Assembly (NCBI GenBank): GCA_015272325.1
Contig: JACYLU010000028.1
Span: 186,001 to 250,000 of the forward strand
Direction of reading: 5' to 3'
DNA from: Synechococcales cyanobacterium C42_A2020_086
GTDB lineage: Bacteria > Cyanobacteriota > Cyanobacteriia > Elainellales > Elainellaceae
DNA: 64,000 bases
The notes below the pieces were generated by a model. The model was not told the DNA's origin. It did no database searches and worked only from the letters and a program-made list of their open reading frames with translations. Positions 13,993 through 27,518 of the stretch are shown piece after piece. Each line of letters opens with the position of its first letter. The stretch's first letter is position 1. A program made the position numbers and the translations under genes.

Positions 13993-15039
13993 TTAAGCAA
14001 CGATCCGAAAATCAGATGCAGTGAGAGCGGGGGCGGTCGTTAGGGCGTTGTTGTCACTGTCAATCGTGGCAAACTGTCCTCCCTGCCCAAAGCCAGCTGC
14101 AGAACCATTGGCATTGAAGAACACTCTGCCATTGGTTCGGTTATAAACAATCCGCTTGCTGCTGGTGCTGGCAGCGGCATCATCGTTGACGAAGGCAATA
14201 TCTGAGAGGCTGATGTTGCCAAAGGTGGTTTTGTCCAGCACGATCTTGTCGGTGCCGCGGACAAAGTCTGTCACCCGATCGATACCCAGATCCGCCGCGT
14301 TGAAGTCTCGACCCGAATCGAAGCGGAAGAAGTCTCGACCGCTACCTCCGGTCAGCGTATCATTACCGGCACCACCGTTGAGCCGATCGTTGCCTGTGCC
14401 GCCATCGAGGATATCGGTGCCGCCCCGGCCAATCAGCGTATCGTTGCCGCCATTGCCGGTCAGGGTGTCATTGCCGTCACCTCCAACCAAACGGTTGGCG
14501 TTGTCATCCCCAACTAGGGTGTTGCTCGATGCCACGGGGGTGGGCGTGGGGGCTGGCGTGGGGATGGGTCCAGCACTAGGAGCGGGAGCGGGTGTAGGAA
14601 TGGCGCTATTGGGGTTGAGATCGCCACTGCCGAAAAGCTGCGTCCAGTAGGTATTGTAATTGACGCGACCGGTGTCATTCGCGAGATAGTAGTAGCCGAC
14701 GCCAAGCTCGGTGTAGTTAGCGTTGAGCATGTTGGCGCGGTGACCAGGGCTGTCGATCCACCCCTGCACTACAGTTTCAGGAGTTTGGTATCCTGCTGCG
14801 ATGTTTTCTCCCATGGATCGAGCTTCATAGCCTACAAGCTTCGCTCGATCCCACGGTTGAGAACCGTTTTTGCCAGTGTGGCTAAAGTAGTCTTGCAGCG
14901 CCATGTCCTGAGAGTGGGCGTCAGCTGCTGCATTCAGTTCCGCATTTAACTTCAGCGGTGCTAGTCCATTCTGAGCGCGAAACCCATTGGTCAGTTCCAG
15001 CACGCGGTTGACAAATGCAGTGTTCGTTGCCACAGTCAT
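13993..15039 (-). CDS. CAP/SCP-domain protein with RTX calcium-binding repeats
   Basis: A 348-residue protein with two parts. Residues about 8-135 form a CAP (SCP/PR-1) domain with the [15 protein letters not shown] and GENIAAGY motifs. A Pro/Ala/Thr linker (about 145-170) joins it to RTX nonapeptide repeats of the GGxGNDxL type (about 172-232), and a beta-rich C-terminal region ends the protein. There is no N-terminal signal peptide; RTX repeats and an uncleaved C-terminal signal are the usual mark of type I (ABC) secretion, so it is probably extracellular and binds Ca2+. No secretion genes lie nearby. The substrate or partner of the CAP domain is unknown. Confidence 0.88.
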
Positions 15040-19032: not shown

Positions 19033-21822
19033 ATGAGCCACTCTGCCCCCCTCCCTAGTTCTCGCTTGCCTCGAACGCTGAGCACCCTGGAAACGTGGGG
19101 GTTTGGTGTTGTTACTCACATTGCCTGCCCGCTGATGGTACCTACGGTACATGCCGCATTGGGGACTAAAGCCTTGTTCGTTTGGGTGCCCGCGGTGATT
19201 GTTGGCATCGTGTTGAATTATCAATTGCGGCGACTGGGGGTGCGATTCATCGATTTGGCGGGGGGCACCTCTAGCTATACGTTGCGGCTCTGGCAAGATC
19301 GTCCGCTGGTGGCTCGCTACATCGCACTCGCGTTTTTCTCAGCGTGGATCGCTGCTGTTCCAGTCTATGTAATTGTTCTGACGGATCTGATTAAGGCGAA
19401 TTTAGAGCTGCTGAACGTGCCGTGCCCGGAATTGCTGCTGAAGATCGGCCTTACCCTTTTACCGATGGTGTTGGCGTTCAGCGGTGTACGGGCGATCAGC
19501 TTGCTGCATTTGTATTTCATTATTCCTGCCTTGGGGTTGCTGCTCCTGTTTTGCAGCCAAGGACTCAGCTGGTTGGCGCTGTCGCCGGATAGTCCGGGGT
19601 TATTCCCTGAGCGTCTGGAGGTGCCCAGTTTCCGAGAATGGGCCCAGTGGTTTTTCCTAGTGGTCTGGGTGACTTATTCTGGCGAATCGGCGGCGGCCTT
19701 CACTGCCGATAGTCGCAATCCACGCGGCACGCTGCAATTTTTGCCGATTTCGGCCTGGCTGTTGGTGCCCGTGTTTATTGGTGGTGCTTGGGTTGTGATG
19801 CGGCTTGCTGCTCCTGACTCAGGCGACGATGCTTTTTTGACCCTGTTGACAGCGTCGCAAGGCTTTTGGGGCGAGTCGGCTGCTTTGGTCGTCACCTTTT
19901 GGCTTGTGGCAACTTGCCTGCTGAATAACACCACCATTGTGGCCCTCTGCCCTCGAATGCTGTATCAGTTGGCGCTAGATCAACAGCTCTCTCCGGTGTT
20001 TGCCGTGGTGTCGCGACGGGGTGTGTCTGGACCGGCATTGCTGCTGATGCTTGTGCTGAGTCTGTTGGGGCTGGGATGGGGCAATGTGGGACGGCTCGTG
20101 GTGTTTGGCAATGTGACCTGGTTTGTAGCCATGGCGGCTCTGCATCTGGGGCTGTGGCGACGGCGGGATCAACCGGAAGTGCTCTACCCTCGATTGAGTC
20201 TGGCATTGTTTGCGCTGGAAGGAGTGGTTTTTGTGGTGGCGGCCCTGGCTTGGGGTTGGCAGGATTTTGCCCTAGGGCTGCTGCCGCCGCTAGGGATTAT
20301 GGGAGTGGATGCGGTGATTCGCCGTTTGCCGCTGGCTATTTGTCGCCCCCAATGGTGGCAAGAACAGTATCGCGCTCGCCTGCCCGTAGCGTTGAATGAC
20401 TCTATCATGGTGCAGATCGTGATGCTGATTGTCTTGCTGTCGGGGGCGGTGCTGACGGGTTGGTGGTTTGGTACGCGGCTGCACAATGGCACAACTCAAA
20501 GCAGCGAAAATCTGGTAGCCATTTTGCTGATGACCGTTGTATTCGTGGGGGTGGCTATTGCCTGCTGGACCAGCCTACCGCAAGTTGTTGCCCTAGCCGA
20601 AGCTCGGGAAGCCACTGAGCATTTATTAGAAGTGGCTCAAGACGGCATTATGGTGGTGGATGAAGCAGGCATGATTCAGCGAGCCAATCCAGCTACGCAA
20701 GCGTTTTTTGGAGCAACTCTCGATCAGTTAGTGAATAGTTCCTTGCGCCACTGGCTGCCGCAGCTCGCTGAGGATCCGAGCCATTGGCCCCGTCGCAGCG
20801 AACAGTCGTTGCCGCAATCGCTCCACCCCCGCACCTTTGAAATCTCAATTTCCGATCGACCGCATCAAGACTTTCGCGAATATGTCGTAATTCTGCACGA
20901 CGTGACGGCCCGCAAGCAGGCTCAGCAGGTGCTGCAACAGTCTGAAGCGGAAATGCGTCAGCAGGCACAGCAGCTTGCCTCGCAGCTCATCCAAAGCGAA
21001 AAAATGTCGAGTCTGGGGCAACTGGTCGCTGGGATTGCCCACGAAATCAACAACCCCGTTAACTTTATCTATGGCAATCTCAGTCATGCCGCTGACTATA
21101 CTCACGAGCTGCTAGACCTGCTGAGGTTGTATCAACAGCATTATCCTCAGCCCGTTGTGGCAATTCAGCGCCAAGCCGACGCCATCGATGTAGGGTTTCT
21201 CGCTGCCGATCTGCCCAAGCTGATCCGCTCGATGAAAGTGGGTGCAGAGCGAATTCAGAAGATTGTGGTTTCTCTGCGCAGCTTTTCTCGCAAAGACGAG
21301 GCCGAGATGAAAACTGTGGATATTCACGACGGCATCGACAACACCTTACTGATTCTCCAGCATCGTTTGAAAGCCCAACCCCATCGCGCCGAGATTCAGA
21401 TCCAAAAACATTACGGGCAGCTTCCTCCTGTGGAATGCTATGCAGGGCAACTGAATCAGGTGTTCATGAATATTCTGGCGAATGCCATTGATGCCCTAGA
21501 AGAACGGCTATCCCTTGAGCCAGATCACGCAGCGACGGTGCAGATCTACACCCAGCGCCTAGGCTCTAATCAGATCCAGATTCGCATTGCAGATAATGGA
21601 CCCGGCATTCCTGATGCAATCCGCCATCAACTCTTTGACCCCTTCTTCACAACGAAACCCGTGGGGCGAGGAACTGGATTAGGGTTGTCGTTGAGCTATG
21701 ACATTATCACCAAGAAACACAACGGGCAGTTGCGCTGTCTTTCGCTTGCAGGAGCCGGTGCCGAATTCATCATCGAGATTCCGCTGTACCAGCAGGCGGT
21801 TTCCGTGGGTCAGTCTGTCTAA
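19033..21822 (+). CDS. APC-type amino acid permease fused to PAS and histidine kinase domains
   Basis: A 929-residue protein. Residues about 15-500 hold some 12-14 membrane segments with an amino-acid/polyamine permease pattern (LETWGFGVVTHI at the start, WVTYSGESAAAFTAD in the middle). A PAS domain follows (about 525-625), then a heptad-rich linker, a HisKA domain with GIAHEINNP (phosphoacceptor His670), and an HATPase domain with N box NQVFMNILANAIDALEE, DNGPGIP, DPFFTTKP and GTGLGLSL. The plain reading is a sensor kinase that uses a transporter fold to perceive or import a ligand, as in CbrA-like kinases, which use a sodium/solute symporter instead. No response regulator is adjacent. The substrate is unknown and transport activity is not proven. 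The ATG is followed by a normal cytoplasmic N-terminus. Confidence 0.85.
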   Translation: MSHSAPLPSSRLPRTLSTLETWGFGVVTHIACPLMVPTVHAALGTKALFVWVPAVIVGIVLNYQLRRLGVRFIDLAGGTSSYTLRLWQDRPLVARYIALAFFSAWIAAVPVYVIVLTDLIKANLELLNVPCPELLLKIGLTLLPMVLAFSGVRAISLLHLYFIIPALGLLLLFCSQGLSWLALSPDSPGLFPERLEVPSFREWAQWFFLVVWVTYSGESAAAFTADSRNPRGTLQFLPISAWLLVPVFIGGAWVVMRLAAPDSGDDAFLTLLTASQGFWGESAALVVTFWLVATCLLNNTTIVALCPRMLYQLALDQQLSPVFAVVSRRGVSGPALLLMLVLSLLGLGWGNVGRLVVFGNVTWFVAMAALHLGLWRRRDQPEVLYPRLSLALFALEGVVFVVAALAWGWQDFALGLLPPLGIMGVDAVIRRLPLAICRPQWWQEQYRARLPVALNDSIMVQIVMLIVLLSGAVLTGWWFGTRLHNGTTQSSENLVAILLMTVVFVGVAIACWTSLPQVVALAEAREATEHLLEVAQDGIMVVDEAGMIQRANPATQAFFGATLDQLVNSSLRHWLPQLAEDPSHWPRRSEQSLPQSLHPRTFEISISDRPHQDFREYVVILHDVTARKQAQQVLQQSEAEMRQQAQQLASQLIQSEKMSSLGQLVAGIAHEINNPVNFIYGNLSHAADYTHELLDLLRLYQQHYPQPVVAIQRQADAIDVGFLAADLPKLIRSMKVGAERIQKIVVSLRSFSRKDEAEMKTVDIHDGIDNTLLILQHRLKAQPHRAEIQIQKHYGQLPPVECYAGQLNQVFMNILANAIDALEERLSLEPDHAATVQIYTQRLGSNQIQIRIADNGPGIPDAIRHQLFDPFFTTKPVGRGTGLGLSLSYDIITKKHNGQLRCLSLAGAGAEFIIEIPLYQQAVSVGQSV

Positions 21823-21870: not shown

Positions 21871-22833
21871 CTAAGACTTTGAGACCGACTGCACCCCCCA
21901 GGAATTGCGCTCCCAAAACACGCCTTCGGCATAGCCCTGAATCGAGGCATCCGCAGCGGCGAGATCGAGCCGTTTTTCGGTGAGGCAGCAGTAGGTGGCA
22001 TTGATGTCTATCCCCACATACCGCCTGCCGGTTTTTTGAGCCACGACGGAAGTGGTGCCAGCCCCGACGAACGGATCAAAGACGACATCACCTGGATTTG
22101 AGCTAGCCAGGATAATTTTTGCCAGCAGTTTCTCGGGTTTTTGTGTAGGGTGGTCGGTGTTTTCGGGCATCGACCAAAAGGGCACGGTTAGGTCGGTCCA
22201 GAGGTTTGAGGGGTAAGTGAGGCGGTAGTTGCCGTGGCTGGTTCTTTGCCAGTCTTTCGGATTGCCGTGGGTATCGGTGTAGGGGGCGATGACGCGGCGC
22301 TTCAGCTTTACGGCATCTACATTGAAGGTGTACTGCTGGGAAACCGTACAGAACCAGATCTGCTCAGAACAGTTTTTCCAGTTGGCTTTTGCCCCTCGAC
22401 CCTTCTCCCGCTCCCAAGTGATGCAGTTGCGCACGATCAGGTGCTGCTCAGCCACTAGGTGAATCGCCGCCGCCGAGCGCCAGTCGCCACAGATATACAC
22501 CGAAGCCGTGGGTTTGAGAATCTTGAGCAGGCGGGGCAGCCAAGTTTCTAACCAGGCTCGATAGTCGGCAATCGAACGACCGCGAAAGGAGGTTGCTCCA
22601 AAGGATTTGCTCAGGTTGTAGGGGGGATCGATAAACAGCAAATCCACAAAACAAGACGGCAGCCAGTCCAGGATTTCAAATAGGTCCTGGTGAACGGTTT
22701 GATTCAACAACTGCTCTGGCGGAACTGGGCCCGACAGCTTCTGCAACCGAGACTGGTAATAGTGCAACTCCGGCTCTGATAGGGTGAGAGTACGGTTTCG
22801 CGGTGCTCGCGGCTTATTCACACTAAGGTTCAC
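21871..22833 (-). CDS. DNA methyltransferase (N6-adenine or N4-cytosine), orphan
   Basis: A 320-residue amino-methyltransferase. The catalytic motif DPPY (69-72, in FIDPPYN) comes before the SAM-binding motif FVGAGTT (around 250), the order of beta-class enzymes; HPTQKPEKLL is also typical. No restriction endonuclease gene is adjacent, so it is a solitary methylase. Cyanobacteria carry several conserved solitary methylases, including a GGCC N4-cytosine type; whether this is one of them cannot be told from the sequence, though DPPY is more usual in adenine methylases. It converges with the permease-kinase gene. Confidence 0.8.
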   Translation of the reverse strand: MNLSVNKPRAPRNRTLTLSEPELHYYQSRLQKLSGPVPPEQLLNQTVHQDLFEILDWLPSCFVDLLFIDPPYNLSKSFGATSFRGRSIADYRAWLETWLPRLLKILKPTASVYICGDWRSAAAIHLVAEQHLIVRNCITWEREKGRGAKANWKNCSEQIWFCTVSQQYTFNVDAVKLKRRVIAPYTDTHGNPKDWQRTSHGNYRLTYPSNLWTDLTVPFWSMPENTDHPTQKPEKLLAKIILASSNPGDVVFDPFVGAGTTSVVAQKTGRRYVGIDINATYCCLTEKRLDLAAADASIQGYAEGVFWERNSWGVQSVSKS

Positions 22834-23855: not shown

Positions 23856-24119
23856 ATGTCATCGTCTGCAAAGCCTTCTTCTAACTACTTGACAGATCAG
23901 ATTACTCATATCGCTGATTACATTGTCAAACTGAAGCGCCAGGAAAGAAAAGCTGACCCCCAGCAGGACATCACTGAAGAAGAACGAAAAGCAGTGATTG
24001 TTGATGCCTTGGATATGTATAAGCTTTTGAGTGAGAAAAGCGCTCACACCAAGGGTAAAATTTTGGTGGAATACAAAAAAGGATTACGTAAAATCATCGA
24101 GGAAGTGGTGCTGCCCTGA
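23856..24119 (+). CDS. Small charged hypothetical protein (87 aa)
   Basis: Not recognised. The protein is rich in Lys and Glu, has no membrane segment and is predicted by eye to be mostly helical (LTDQITHIADYIVKLKRQ, then EEERKAVIVDALDMYKLL). Its 3' end overlaps the 3' end of the convergent 1144-residue gene by 36 bases, so the two messages are complementary there. There is no clear Shine-Dalgarno before the ATG. The close overlap suggests the pair has been kept together, but a functional link is inference. Confidence 0.55.
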   Translation: MSSSAKPSSNYLTDQITHIADYIVKLKRQERKADPQQDITEEERKAVIVDALDMYKLLSEKSAHTKGKILVEYKKGLRKIIEEVVLP

Positions 24120-27100
24120 CTCCAACAAGATGTTGCTTTCTCCGCGAATCATTTTGAATACATCGACCAAGAGTTGATTGCGGCAGTCAATCAGGTTTAA
24201 GGACTTGAATTTTCTTGCCTTGAGTTGCGCAATCAACTTTTCGAAGTACTGCTCCATATTCTTGAAGTGTTCCGCTAGGTGACCATTGTAGCGCTGCTGT
24301 CCTAGGGTTTCTGGTGTAGGGAATTGATTATTAACACGCAATTCCGACATCAGTCGTGTTATTTCTCTTAAGGACTTGTGAACGGCGGGATTCACTGCTT
24401 TCCATTCGCCTTTAGTTTTGTAATAGTCCTGTACTGCAGGATCGGCAATTACTAGGAGCAATTTACACACCACTACTAATATCTTGCCTAGATCGGCGAA
24501 TTGCGTGAAGCGATGCGGATACAAACCTCGCAGCAGCAAATCCTCGGAGGGGCTAGCTTCTGTTTTTTCGTCAGGCTCCTCGAAGGCGCGATCCAAAATA
24601 ACAGTGTCGGCTTCTCCAGAGGCTTGATTGCGGCGGGTTCCGTCGGAAGCAATTGCCCAGCAGTACGTGAACATGCGCAGTGCTTTGTGTTTTATAGCAT
24701 GCAAAAGTCGCTCTGATTGCTGCGATTCTTGGCACAGCTCTAACATGCCCATCGCAAACAAAATAATGCTAGAGGTGCTGCCAAAGAGGTAAATAGAATC
24801 TTCTTCCTTAGCACGAATGTCTTTCAAAATAGACATATCTAAACTCAGGATATTGTTACGCGGATCATAAATTTGTTCCTGGTGATCCTGAGCACTGAGT
24901 TCTTTAATTAACGGTACAACCTGCACCTTCGTTTTGCCATAGGGTTCGTAATATTTTTTGCCGTCGTCTTGAATGGTTTTAGGTTGACTGTCAATCTTAT
25001 CTGCGATTGGCATTTTTAGGCTGCTATCACTGGAATACGCTGTTTCTCGTCCGGCATTGTCTTTAATTTGCTGATAGCAGGTTCTGCCAGTTGAGGCATA
25101 GCAGAGCAGCGCATGATCGATCAATCGTTTTGCCCAATCAATACAGATTTCTCGACTAAATTCGGGTGTGGCAATGGCATAATGCTCGCCGAGATAGGCC
25201 ACCATGAGATAGCACCAACTCTGATAGGCAGACCATTGAGCATAAAGTGTTGGGTCACCATCGCGAGCTGAACAAATTCGAGCTTTTTCTAGTAGACGAA
25301 CAGGCTCTAATAACGACTGCCATTTGCCCGACTGCCTCGTATAGTCTGGGAAAAAGATATGGAGCTTGGCCCGATGGGCATGGATTCGCGCCAGAAGATG
25401 GAAATGTGGATGAAAATTACTCTGCGGTAATTCATTTAGTTTGCAGTATCTTGCAAGGCGATCGTCTAAACACTTTTGAGCCGCTTCCAGCCATTTCTCG
25501 GCAGAACGGACTGCCTGATAACGGTCTGGATACGGGCATTCTGGATCGTCTAAATCACTGAGATAGTGATAGCGAAACCAGCAGAGATAGTATTTAGCAA
25601 GAATGGCATTGCCGAGGAAACATGCCGAATTTTCATGAAAATAGGGCTTCACTGCATCGAGGTACCGTTTAGCGACTCGATACAATCCTTCCTTGAGGTT
25701 GGCATCGGCAATTTTAAGGTGAGCCTCAAAGGCAATGACACTCCAAGGTTTTCCAGGGTGATGCTCTACAAATTGAAAATCTTGCTCGCGGCGGCGATAG
25801 CGATTGCGAAAGATAGTTTCTTCGAGTTCACCTTCCATGGCTCTGAGCGAGAAAGGATAGAGGGACAGCCGCGACTCGGCCCGTTTGAAGGCACCATATT
25901 CCTCAATGCGGTGGCAGAGTTCCTGCAAATAGCGTTGGCGATCAACACCAAGTTGCTGGATTAATCGCAATCGAGCATGAAGTGCCGCTTTCACCGAAAC
26001 TTCTATCAAATCAAAACCGCAAAACTCGCCATAGGCCGCTTCCGACGCTGTTGCAACCTGTTCGCAGGTAATTTGTTCATCGATCGCTCGGTCAATGTCT
26101 TCAAATTTGTAGAGTTTGACCAAGCTGTAGGACCACACCGGACCGTGATTACTACTGCCTACCAATTCGTCATTGCTGAGAATTTCATCCGGAATCGGCA
26201 AATAGTCCTGCAAAACGGGGATGTCCCAAATCAACACCCGATTGATCACCGCAATGATGTGAGACAGGGGACTGCCAATGCCGGTAATTTCCTCGGAAAA
26301 ATCGAGCCGTTTATAGCCCAACTCTTGCTTGATGGTGATGACGTTCGGAAATTCCGTTTCGTAGCTGTCGGGCAGCTTGATGTAGAAATGCACTTTAACT
26401 TTGTAGGCAAACTGGCGCTCTAGTCCATTGATGCTGTCTTGATCTTCTTCTGGTTCTAGAAGCTGAGGATTTAGCAAACCGCTTTCCTGCCCTTCTCTCT
26501 GGACATAGAGCGGCAGCGGGCGCATTTTTTCTATCTCAAAGTACTTGAAATAGATGGGAAACTCATCGGTGAGAATCTCATTCTCAATGACTGAGCGAGT
26601 CAAACGTTGAATGAAATGCGGTGTCAAATAATTGGTGTATTTTTCGTGTCGTGTGGAGTGCGATTGTTTGGCGAGCAGGGCTTCGGCTTGCTTGATGCCT
26701 GCTTGAAACTCAATGCGGCTAATTTCCCGTTCTACTTTTTCAACTAGTTCAGCAACCTTAGCCGATTTCCGTTTACTATCTAGTCCATTAAAGTACTGCT
26801 GAATCAGTGAATCAATGGTTGCTTCAATTAAAGACCGAGTTGATCGCCGATCGAGATGGGTAGATTCTGTGAGCTGAGTGAGATGGTTGGCCAGAGCTGT
26901 ACGCCGCAGGAAGGCTTTGTAGAGCTGCACAGCTTCTTCAAAGCTAATGCCTTTGATGGGATCGGTCGCATCTTCCAGCAGCCGTTGAAATAGGACATCG
27001 GCAGGATGGACGGGTAAGTTGAGGGCTTCGCGCTCCCCCCTGGAAAGCTGGAAAAACTTCTGTAGTGCTCGCAGTTTTTCGGCGCGAGTCAGAATTCGGG

Positions 27101-27518
27101 GTACCTTGCGATCGGGCGTGGTGGCGCGCTGCTCGTCCCAATAGGTTTGCAGGGCCGTCAGGATCTTCACCAACTTGCCAAGCGTTAAACCCGGAACAGG
27201 CTGCTCTTTTTCATCGGGATAATACTGGTCGTGCAGTACCGAGCGCAACACTCGACGCACAAAGATTCGCTCCATGCCCCACTGCTTCGCAATGCTGCTT
27301 TCGTTCGGTTGAGACAACTTCTTGTGGCTGCGTCCCTGCTTGCTAGTCGATACTTCCAGATTGGTGAGGCTTAGCAAGTACTGATAGACCGCCTTATCGC
27401 GAGTTTGATCGTCGTGATCGCGCCGCCCTCGCTCGAGTTCTGAGGATTCTGAGCCGGACTCAAATGGAATCGGCGTCGGATCGGGTGAGGGAGGTTGGGA
27501 GGAAGGGGAATTTTTCAT
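24084..27518 (-). CDS. Large hypothetical protein (1144 aa) with TPR-like helical region
   Basis: Not recognised. Residues 1-45 are disordered and rich in Pro, Ser and acidic residues. Residues about 70-120 could form a winged or helix-turn-helix unit (SIAKQWGMERIFVRRVLRSV). Two long helical regions follow (about 190-300, and about 620-800) and the latter, with repeated aromatic/Ala helices around KWLEAAQKCLDD and LYAQWSAYQSWCYLM, resembles degenerate TPR-type repeats. The middle (about 370-500) is more beta-like. No nucleotide-binding, protease or nuclease motif was seen. Codon use looks ordinary but the gene is more AT-rich than its neighbours, and its flanks are AT-rich, so acquisition is possible. 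Confidence 0.8.
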   Translation of the reverse strand: MKNSPSSQPPSPDPTPIPFESGSESSELERGRRDHDDQTRDKAVYQYLLSLTNLEVSTSKQGRSHKKLSQPNESSIAKQWGMERIFVRRVLRSVLHDQYYPDEKEQPVPGLTLGKLVKILTALQTYWDEQRATTPDRKVPRILTRAEKLRALQKFFQLSRGEREALNLPVHPADVLFQRLLEDATDPIKGISFEEAVQLYKAFLRRTALANHLTQLTESTHLDRRSTRSLIEATIDSLIQQYFNGLDSKRKSAKVAELVEKVEREISRIEFQAGIKQAEALLAKQSHSTRHEKYTNYLTPHFIQRLTRSVIENEILTDEFPIYFKYFEIEKMRPLPLYVQREGQESGLLNPQLLEPEEDQDSINGLERQFAYKVKVHFYIKLPDSYETEFPNVITIKQELGYKRLDFSEEITGIGSPLSHIIAVINRVLIWDIPVLQDYLPIPDEILSNDELVGSSNHGPVWSYSLVKLYKFEDIDRAIDEQITCEQVATASEAAYGEFCGFDLIEVSVKAALHARLRLIQQLGVDRQRYLQELCHRIEEYGAFKRAESRLSLYPFSLRAMEGELEETIFRNRYRRREQDFQFVEHHPGKPWSVIAFEAHLKIADANLKEGLYRVAKRYLDAVKPYFHENSACFLGNAILAKYYLCWFRYHYLSDLDDPECPYPDRYQAVRSAEKWLEAAQKCLDDRLARYCKLNELPQSNFHPHFHLLARIHAHRAKLHIFFPDYTRQSGKWQSLLEPVRLLEKARICSARDGDPTLYAQWSAYQSWCYLMVAYLGEHYAIATPEFSREICIDWAKRLIDHALLCYASTGRTCYQQIKDNAGRETAYSSDSSLKMPIADKIDSQPKTIQDDGKKYYEPYGKTKVQVVPLIKELSAQDHQEQIYDPRNNILSLDMSILKDIRAKEEDSIYLFGSTSSIILFAMGMLELCQESQQSERLLHAIKHKALRMFTYCWAIASDGTRRNQASGEADTVILDRAFEEPDEKTEASPSEDLLLRGLYPHRFTQFADLGKILVVVCKLLLVIADPAVQDYYKTKGEWKAVNPAVHKSLREITRLMSELRVNNQFPTPETLGQQRYNGHLAEHFKNMEQYFEKLIAQLKARKFKSLNLIDCRNQLLVDVFKMIRGESNILLESGQHHFLDDFT

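Follow-up and report, generated by a model that had tools for sequence, protein, structure and literature searches.

A putative APC-permease-related signalling module that recurs across cyanobacteria with more than one output

Does the open reading frame at 19033-21822 (+ strand) of the window, by which we mean the whole 64,000-nucleotide stretch of Synechococcales cyanobacterium C42_A2020_086 DNA analysed here, encode a genuine fusion of a permease to a histidine kinase, and what would a permease-like domain do at the head of such a kinase? Carrier-kinase fusion as such is already known. CbrA and CrbS are SLC5-STAC sensor kinases in which a carrier is fused to the kinase (PMC13022988, PMC7096432, PMC5715377), in agreement with what the first-pass annotation of this locus had said of sodium/solute symporters of the CbrA type, and the ammonium sensor kinase of Kuenenia stuttgartiensis is an Amt-histidine kinase (PMC5764959). 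An input of APC fold is a new version of this arrangement. Transceptors have been called oddities, with very few cases reported (PMC11109136).

The reading frame and its distribution

A single unbroken frame of 929 codons begins with the ATG at 19033 and ends with the stop codon at 21822, and from the frame itself, its Pfam matches and 57 homologous frames the 929-aa product is read as an APC-fold module followed by two transmembrane helices, a PAS domain and a histidine kinase (features below are on the + strand unless marked otherwise). The PAS domain was placed at residues 529-628 (20617-20916; Pfam 529-612), and Pfam and the model placed the DHp/HisKA region at residues 655-754 (20995-21294; Pfam HisKA 661-688), with His670 as the predicted phospho-acceptor (codon 21040-21042); the HATPase_c catalytic domain occupies residues 806-919 (21448-21789). 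The kinase boxes are all present, namely H (667-675), N (808-820), G1 (854-860), F (868-872) and G2 (880-886), and the annotated succession of PAS, HisKA with His670 and HATPase in one frame with a membrane part is borne out by the Pfam domains and the intact boxes.

The model of the window protein suggests 14 membrane helices, made up of the 12 of the APC core and an additional hairpin at residues 457-519 (20401-20589; helices 13 and 14 at 457-484 and 489-519), which is also indicated by hydropathy; the even helix count agrees with a cytoplasmic position of the kinase. A short joint, A-C-W-T-S-L-P-Q-V (residues 510-518; 20560-20586), is followed by a predicted signal helix (residues 520-535; 20590-20637) that is unbroken from helix 14, giving one helix of residues 489-535 in the full-length AlphaFold model, whose mean pLDDT is 85.5 and whose pTM of 0.62 makes the mutual placement of the domains unreliable.

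A false joining of two genes in assembly, which the first-pass annotation had itself named as the finding that could overturn it, or in gene annotation was considered and rejected. Assembly fusion is excluded because the closest relative, L057, matches the window protein in architecture and length and is 76% identical to it over the membrane part, and because dN/dS in the APC part is 0.12, both between the window and L057, a pair in which the C-terminal part is saturated, and between L075 and L076. In addition, the family set of 57 homologous frames, one of them (L062) truncated after PAS, comes from many cyanobacterial genomes and rules out the artefact, in whose favour nothing was found and which we regard as exceedingly improbable. 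The APC part is evidently under purifying selection, and the fusion can be taken as old and maintained.

The results of a cyanobacterial survey, which the annotation had proposed, showed how far the architecture extends. With the 520-residue membrane part as query, matches were obtained in 17 of 60 relatives' genomes by whole-genome search and in 41 of 386 cyanobacterial genomes, fragments counted. The family profile (alignment A1) matched 46 of the 386 genomes and gave 44 full-length matches in 35 of them, and all 44 were fused, their open frames coding for 822-1194 aa. The remaining profile matches were either decayed fragments or partial and distant, to frames of permease length (E ~1e-4 to 1e-10), and no close free-standing copy of the APC module was present among the 386 sampled genomes. 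A plasmid search using the membrane part gave no match, and a scan of genome contigs by peptide patterns returned a single close relative, in the MAG RM1_2_2. A full-text literature search for APC-type bacterial fusions, with subscription papers outside its scope, found no description, and protein databases may list the architecture undiscussed. The annotated view of an APC-permease version as unusual thus stands as far as published description goes and falls as far as isolation goes, with full-length fusions in 35 of the 386 genomes. The annotation had also allowed that the architecture might prove to be found widely and already characterised; it recurs in those 35 genomes, but no published account of it was found.

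The membrane part and its substrate site

A Pfam search with the window's membrane part alone (520 residues) gave no significant match, AA_permease reaching E = 0.3 with residues 1-520, below the Pfam cut-off, and family-level evidence was therefore required for APC identity. The family profile matched Pseudomonas LysP (9eyd) with E = 2.7e-6, and Pfam matched AA_permease in 38 and AA_permease_2 in 10 of the 57 members. An AlphaFold model of the membrane part built from the family alignment (mean pLDDT 87.4, pTM 0.87) had AdiC, ApcT and LAT1-type transporters as its top PDB matches in Foldseek, and VIA-align superposed it on AdiC (3l1l) with Z 34.4 and rmsd 3.4 over 393 aligned residues and on SLC7A10 with Z 35.0 and rmsd 3.3 over 429. 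From the LysP profile match, the model and its Foldseek and VIA matches to AdiC, ApcT and SLC7A, an APC-fold core with 12 predicted membrane helices was assigned to residues 11-431 (19063-20325). By fold and homology, as judged from the profile, Pfam in relatives and the model, the membrane part belongs to the APC superfamily. The profile search against APC families that the annotation had recommended thus fell below the cut-off with the single sequence and succeeded with the family profile, and the "full APC-type transporter" of the annotation holds for its fold at the level of the family and not from the one sequence alone. The NCBIfam trimethylamine N-oxide permease model gave weak matches in 49 of the 57 members (best E 1.1e-15); as a ligand assignment it was rejected, since the 20 bits scored by the window protein lie far below the cut-off of 690.

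CbrA and CrbS resemble the window protein in placing a carrier of LeuT-type fold, PAS and a histidine kinase on one chain, but their carrier is SLC5 whereas that of the window is APC, and their parts are linked by a STAC bundle where the window protein has a two-helix hairpin and a continuous helix. No Pfam match to an SSF domain was obtained in the window protein or any of the 57 members, which matched APC models instead, and the window model leaves no room for a STAC four-helix bundle, helix 489-535 entering the PAS strand at 538 directly. Given that the SLC5 and STAC features are both absent, the window protein is placed outside the SLC5-STAC family, and its working mode may resemble that of the family. 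The Kuenenia stuttgartiensis Amt-kinase likewise has a carrier-like membrane domain as histidine-kinase input, but the fold there is Amt and not APC, and no Amt family match (Amt/Rh domain) was found in the window protein or the 57 members.

AdiC, ApcT, LysP and the SLC7A transporters share with the window protein the fold across its residues 11-447 (VIA Z ~30-35) and several loop motifs; they differ in being free-standing and in having a G-x-G motif in helix 1, whereas the window protein lacks the motif and has an output fused to it. In characterised APC transporters this motif is located at the substrate site. In the window protein helix 1 spans residues 18-42 (19084-19158), with an invariant E20. 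The helix was compared with that of seven free-standing permeases, namely E. coli AdiC, CadB, PotE, LysP, AroP and GabP and L142, the sole PF13520 match in the window's own genome, through alignments at ~15% identity that could be shifted by at least one residue: GSG or GTG was present in AdiC, CadB, PotE, LysP, AroP and the own-genome permease and GAS in GabP, and over the aligned segment the fused family had no such signature, 53 of its 57 rows having Trp at position 32 and two, the window's among them, Cys. Since the motif is missing, we infer that a solute would be bound in a different manner from an ordinary amino acid, and transport by the APC module has possibly been lost; the ligand of the window sensor need not, on this comparison, be an ordinary amino acid.

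Other APC motifs are retained, namely the GG of the 2-3 loop, E218 (aligned with AdiC E208) and the invariant P230 in helix 6 and the 6-7 loop (residues 200-232; 19630-19728), and the helix 8-9 motif (R308/S327/G330); a transporter would need them, and they count against reading the module as a dedicated sensor. They bear on a transceptor of the CbrA type, in which the APC domain would import its substrate and the transport cycle would set the kinase, so that flux and not concentration is read. The entire carrier fold, most APC motifs and the strong purifying selection are in keeping with such a protein, and CbrA, the nearest characterised analogue, transports histidine (PMC7096432, PMC13022988); the replacement of the helix-1 G-x-G by a conserved Trp in the family and the lack of close free-standing transporter relatives in the 386-genome sample weigh against it, and we hold it to be possible but unlikely. 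The sensing of an amino acid or polyamine flux, as annotated, is one of two readings, and because the G-x-G is absent, a module that senses its ligand and does not transport it is no less likely; by a small margin we favour a dedicated sensor, transporting little or nothing, over a working transporter-sensor. Use of the APC fold in sensing has a parallel in yeast, where Ssy1 is an APC-type sensor. Gap1 is likewise a yeast APC-type sensor (PMC11109136). In these proteins, as proposed for the window protein, an APC permease fold serves signalling; they differ in being eukaryotic and in working through separate signalling partners with no enzyme fused, whereas in the window protein the enzyme is part of the chain.

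One module before several outputs

The window's kinase class accounts for 35 of the 57 members, 8 of these without PAS. Behind the same APC module we found hybrid kinase-receivers in nine members, a PAS-GAF kinase in one (L071), two other kinase types in four and one, and a GGDEF-EAL output in six, five with PAS and one without. The joint, F-V-G-V-A-I-A-C-W-T-[ST]-L-P-Q in the family, is constant across these outputs, and A510, W512 and T513 are invariant in all 57. On the module tree, in which many deep branches are weakly supported, the output labels (PAS presence counted) need at least 12 changes, against a possible minimum of 7 and an average of 27.5 for shuffled labels. Sequence conservation is higher in the module than in the output domains, and none of the 19 invariant columns in the full-length alignment falls outside the module. 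Given that it also serves hybrid kinases and GGDEF-EAL proteins, the APC module is best described as a general sensory input module, not bound to one kinase or output; being joined to many outputs, like dedicated sensors, it again speaks against the CbrA-type transceptor. It appears to be a transporter-derived sensor module that has not been described before, and not a one-off fusion. MASE1 and MHYT are multi-helix sensory modules exchanged among kinases and GGDEF/EAL enzymes. The APC module is swapped in the same way, but MASE1 and MHYT have no carrier fold, whereas the APC module is a complete carrier fold of 12 + 2 helices.

PAS domains often bind ligands or cofactors, and this, with the presence of PAS in the window protein and most members, favours a reading in which PAS would receive the chemical signal and the APC domain would passively anchor the protein or respond to membrane state or an ion gradient. 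However, PAS is missing from 11 of the 57 members, the membrane helix running straight into GGDEF in L098 and straight into HisKA in L083 and L059, and it is less conserved than the membrane part, while the invariant residues of the carrier core are unexpected in a mere anchor. We consider this reading very unlikely, and PAS to be dispensable in the family.

Proposed signalling path, partners and ligand

The reading that we prefer, and consider probable, is that of an inner-membrane histidine kinase with a complete, diverged APC-fold solute sensor as its input, whose movements drive the attached enzyme. The APC fold, the always-fused module, the shared joint, the swapped outputs, the higher conservation of the module, the dispensable PAS, the missing G-x-G and the intact kinase boxes support it; besides the retained APC motifs, the low identity of the helix-1 alignments and the unreliable domain placement in the full-length model weigh against it. 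In the path that we infer for the window kinase, the APC core would bind a small solute, which is probably amino-acid-like or an amine; rearrangement of the core would shift helices 13 and 14 (457-519); the helix that runs unbroken out of the final membrane span and through the A-C-W-T-[ST]-L-P joint would relay this motion to PAS and to the DHp helices; the relayed motion would switch autophosphorylation of His670; and the phosphate would pass to a distantly encoded response regulator.

No response-regulator gene adjoins the window fusion within 1.5 kb, as the annotation had observed, and 33 of the 35 members of its kinase class have no receiver gene within that distance; judged by its neighbourhood, the window kinase is an orphan, as are most in its class. 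All nine hybrid members have a same-strand receiver-containing gene within 0.7 kb, mostly encoding REC-kinases. Kinase paralogues with up to 64% identity are present in the window's own genome, which makes common downstream regulators plausible. The window gene and L057 have two neighbours in common, one of the enoyl-CoA hydratase family and one, upstream, of 203-213 aa; neither is informative on the ligand. Elsewhere in the window, a convergent N6/N4 DNA methylase gene (21871-22833, - strand) ends 49 bp from the fusion gene, a CAP-domain protein with RTX calcium-binding repeats is encoded at 13993-15039 (-), and a 1144-aa ORF at 24084-27518 (-) has no Pfam match at E 1e-4. In the relatives, three tandem APC-sensor kinases on one strand are followed by genes for a 123-aa receiver and for REC-kinases (L084:5485-14745), and an APC-sensor kinase has directly downstream of it the genes for a Haem-NO-binding (HNOB) protein and for an HNOBA-histidine kinase (L089:12662-14642).

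In four relatives (L059, L060, L083 and L085) a single-module NRPS-like gene, A-T-R or A-MT-T-R with R a reductase, is located 10-136 bp upstream on the same strand. The A domains of the four enzymes are mutually 54-61% identical, and the L059 enzyme also carries an alanine racemase domain; the adenylation-domain code, read by eye, is presumably glycine-like and was unused in the analysis. The APC modules of the four fall into two separate supported clades, one being the window's own 12-row clade. The adjacency suggests an amino-acid-derived ligand, perhaps self-made, in these four organisms, with a possible component of chance, NRPS genes being abundant in several of the genomes. A search of the window's genome for the A-T-R enzyme gave no match at E <= 1e-100, and this link was rejected there; the window ligand must thus have another source. 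The fullest proposal is in our view a long shot: an undescribed cyanobacterial receptor module, descended from an APC permease and no longer transporting, would be swapped among histidine kinases and c-di-GMP enzymes, and its ligand in some lineages would be a small, self-made product, of the amino-aldehyde class, of the adjacent NRPS-like A-(MT)-T-R enzyme.

Carrier-receptor proteins are regarded as rare in prokaryotes, and those that have been studied use SLC5 or Amt carriers. The window protein, as read from its sequence and those of its relatives, is one instance of a signalling module related to APC permeases that is found across cyanobacteria and is not bound to one output. APC-input kinases, hybrid kinases and GGDEF-EAL proteins make up a natural series for how a transport cycle turns into a signal and for what a carrier loses on becoming a receptor, and the APC module would supply the input for many orphan cyanobacterial kinases.
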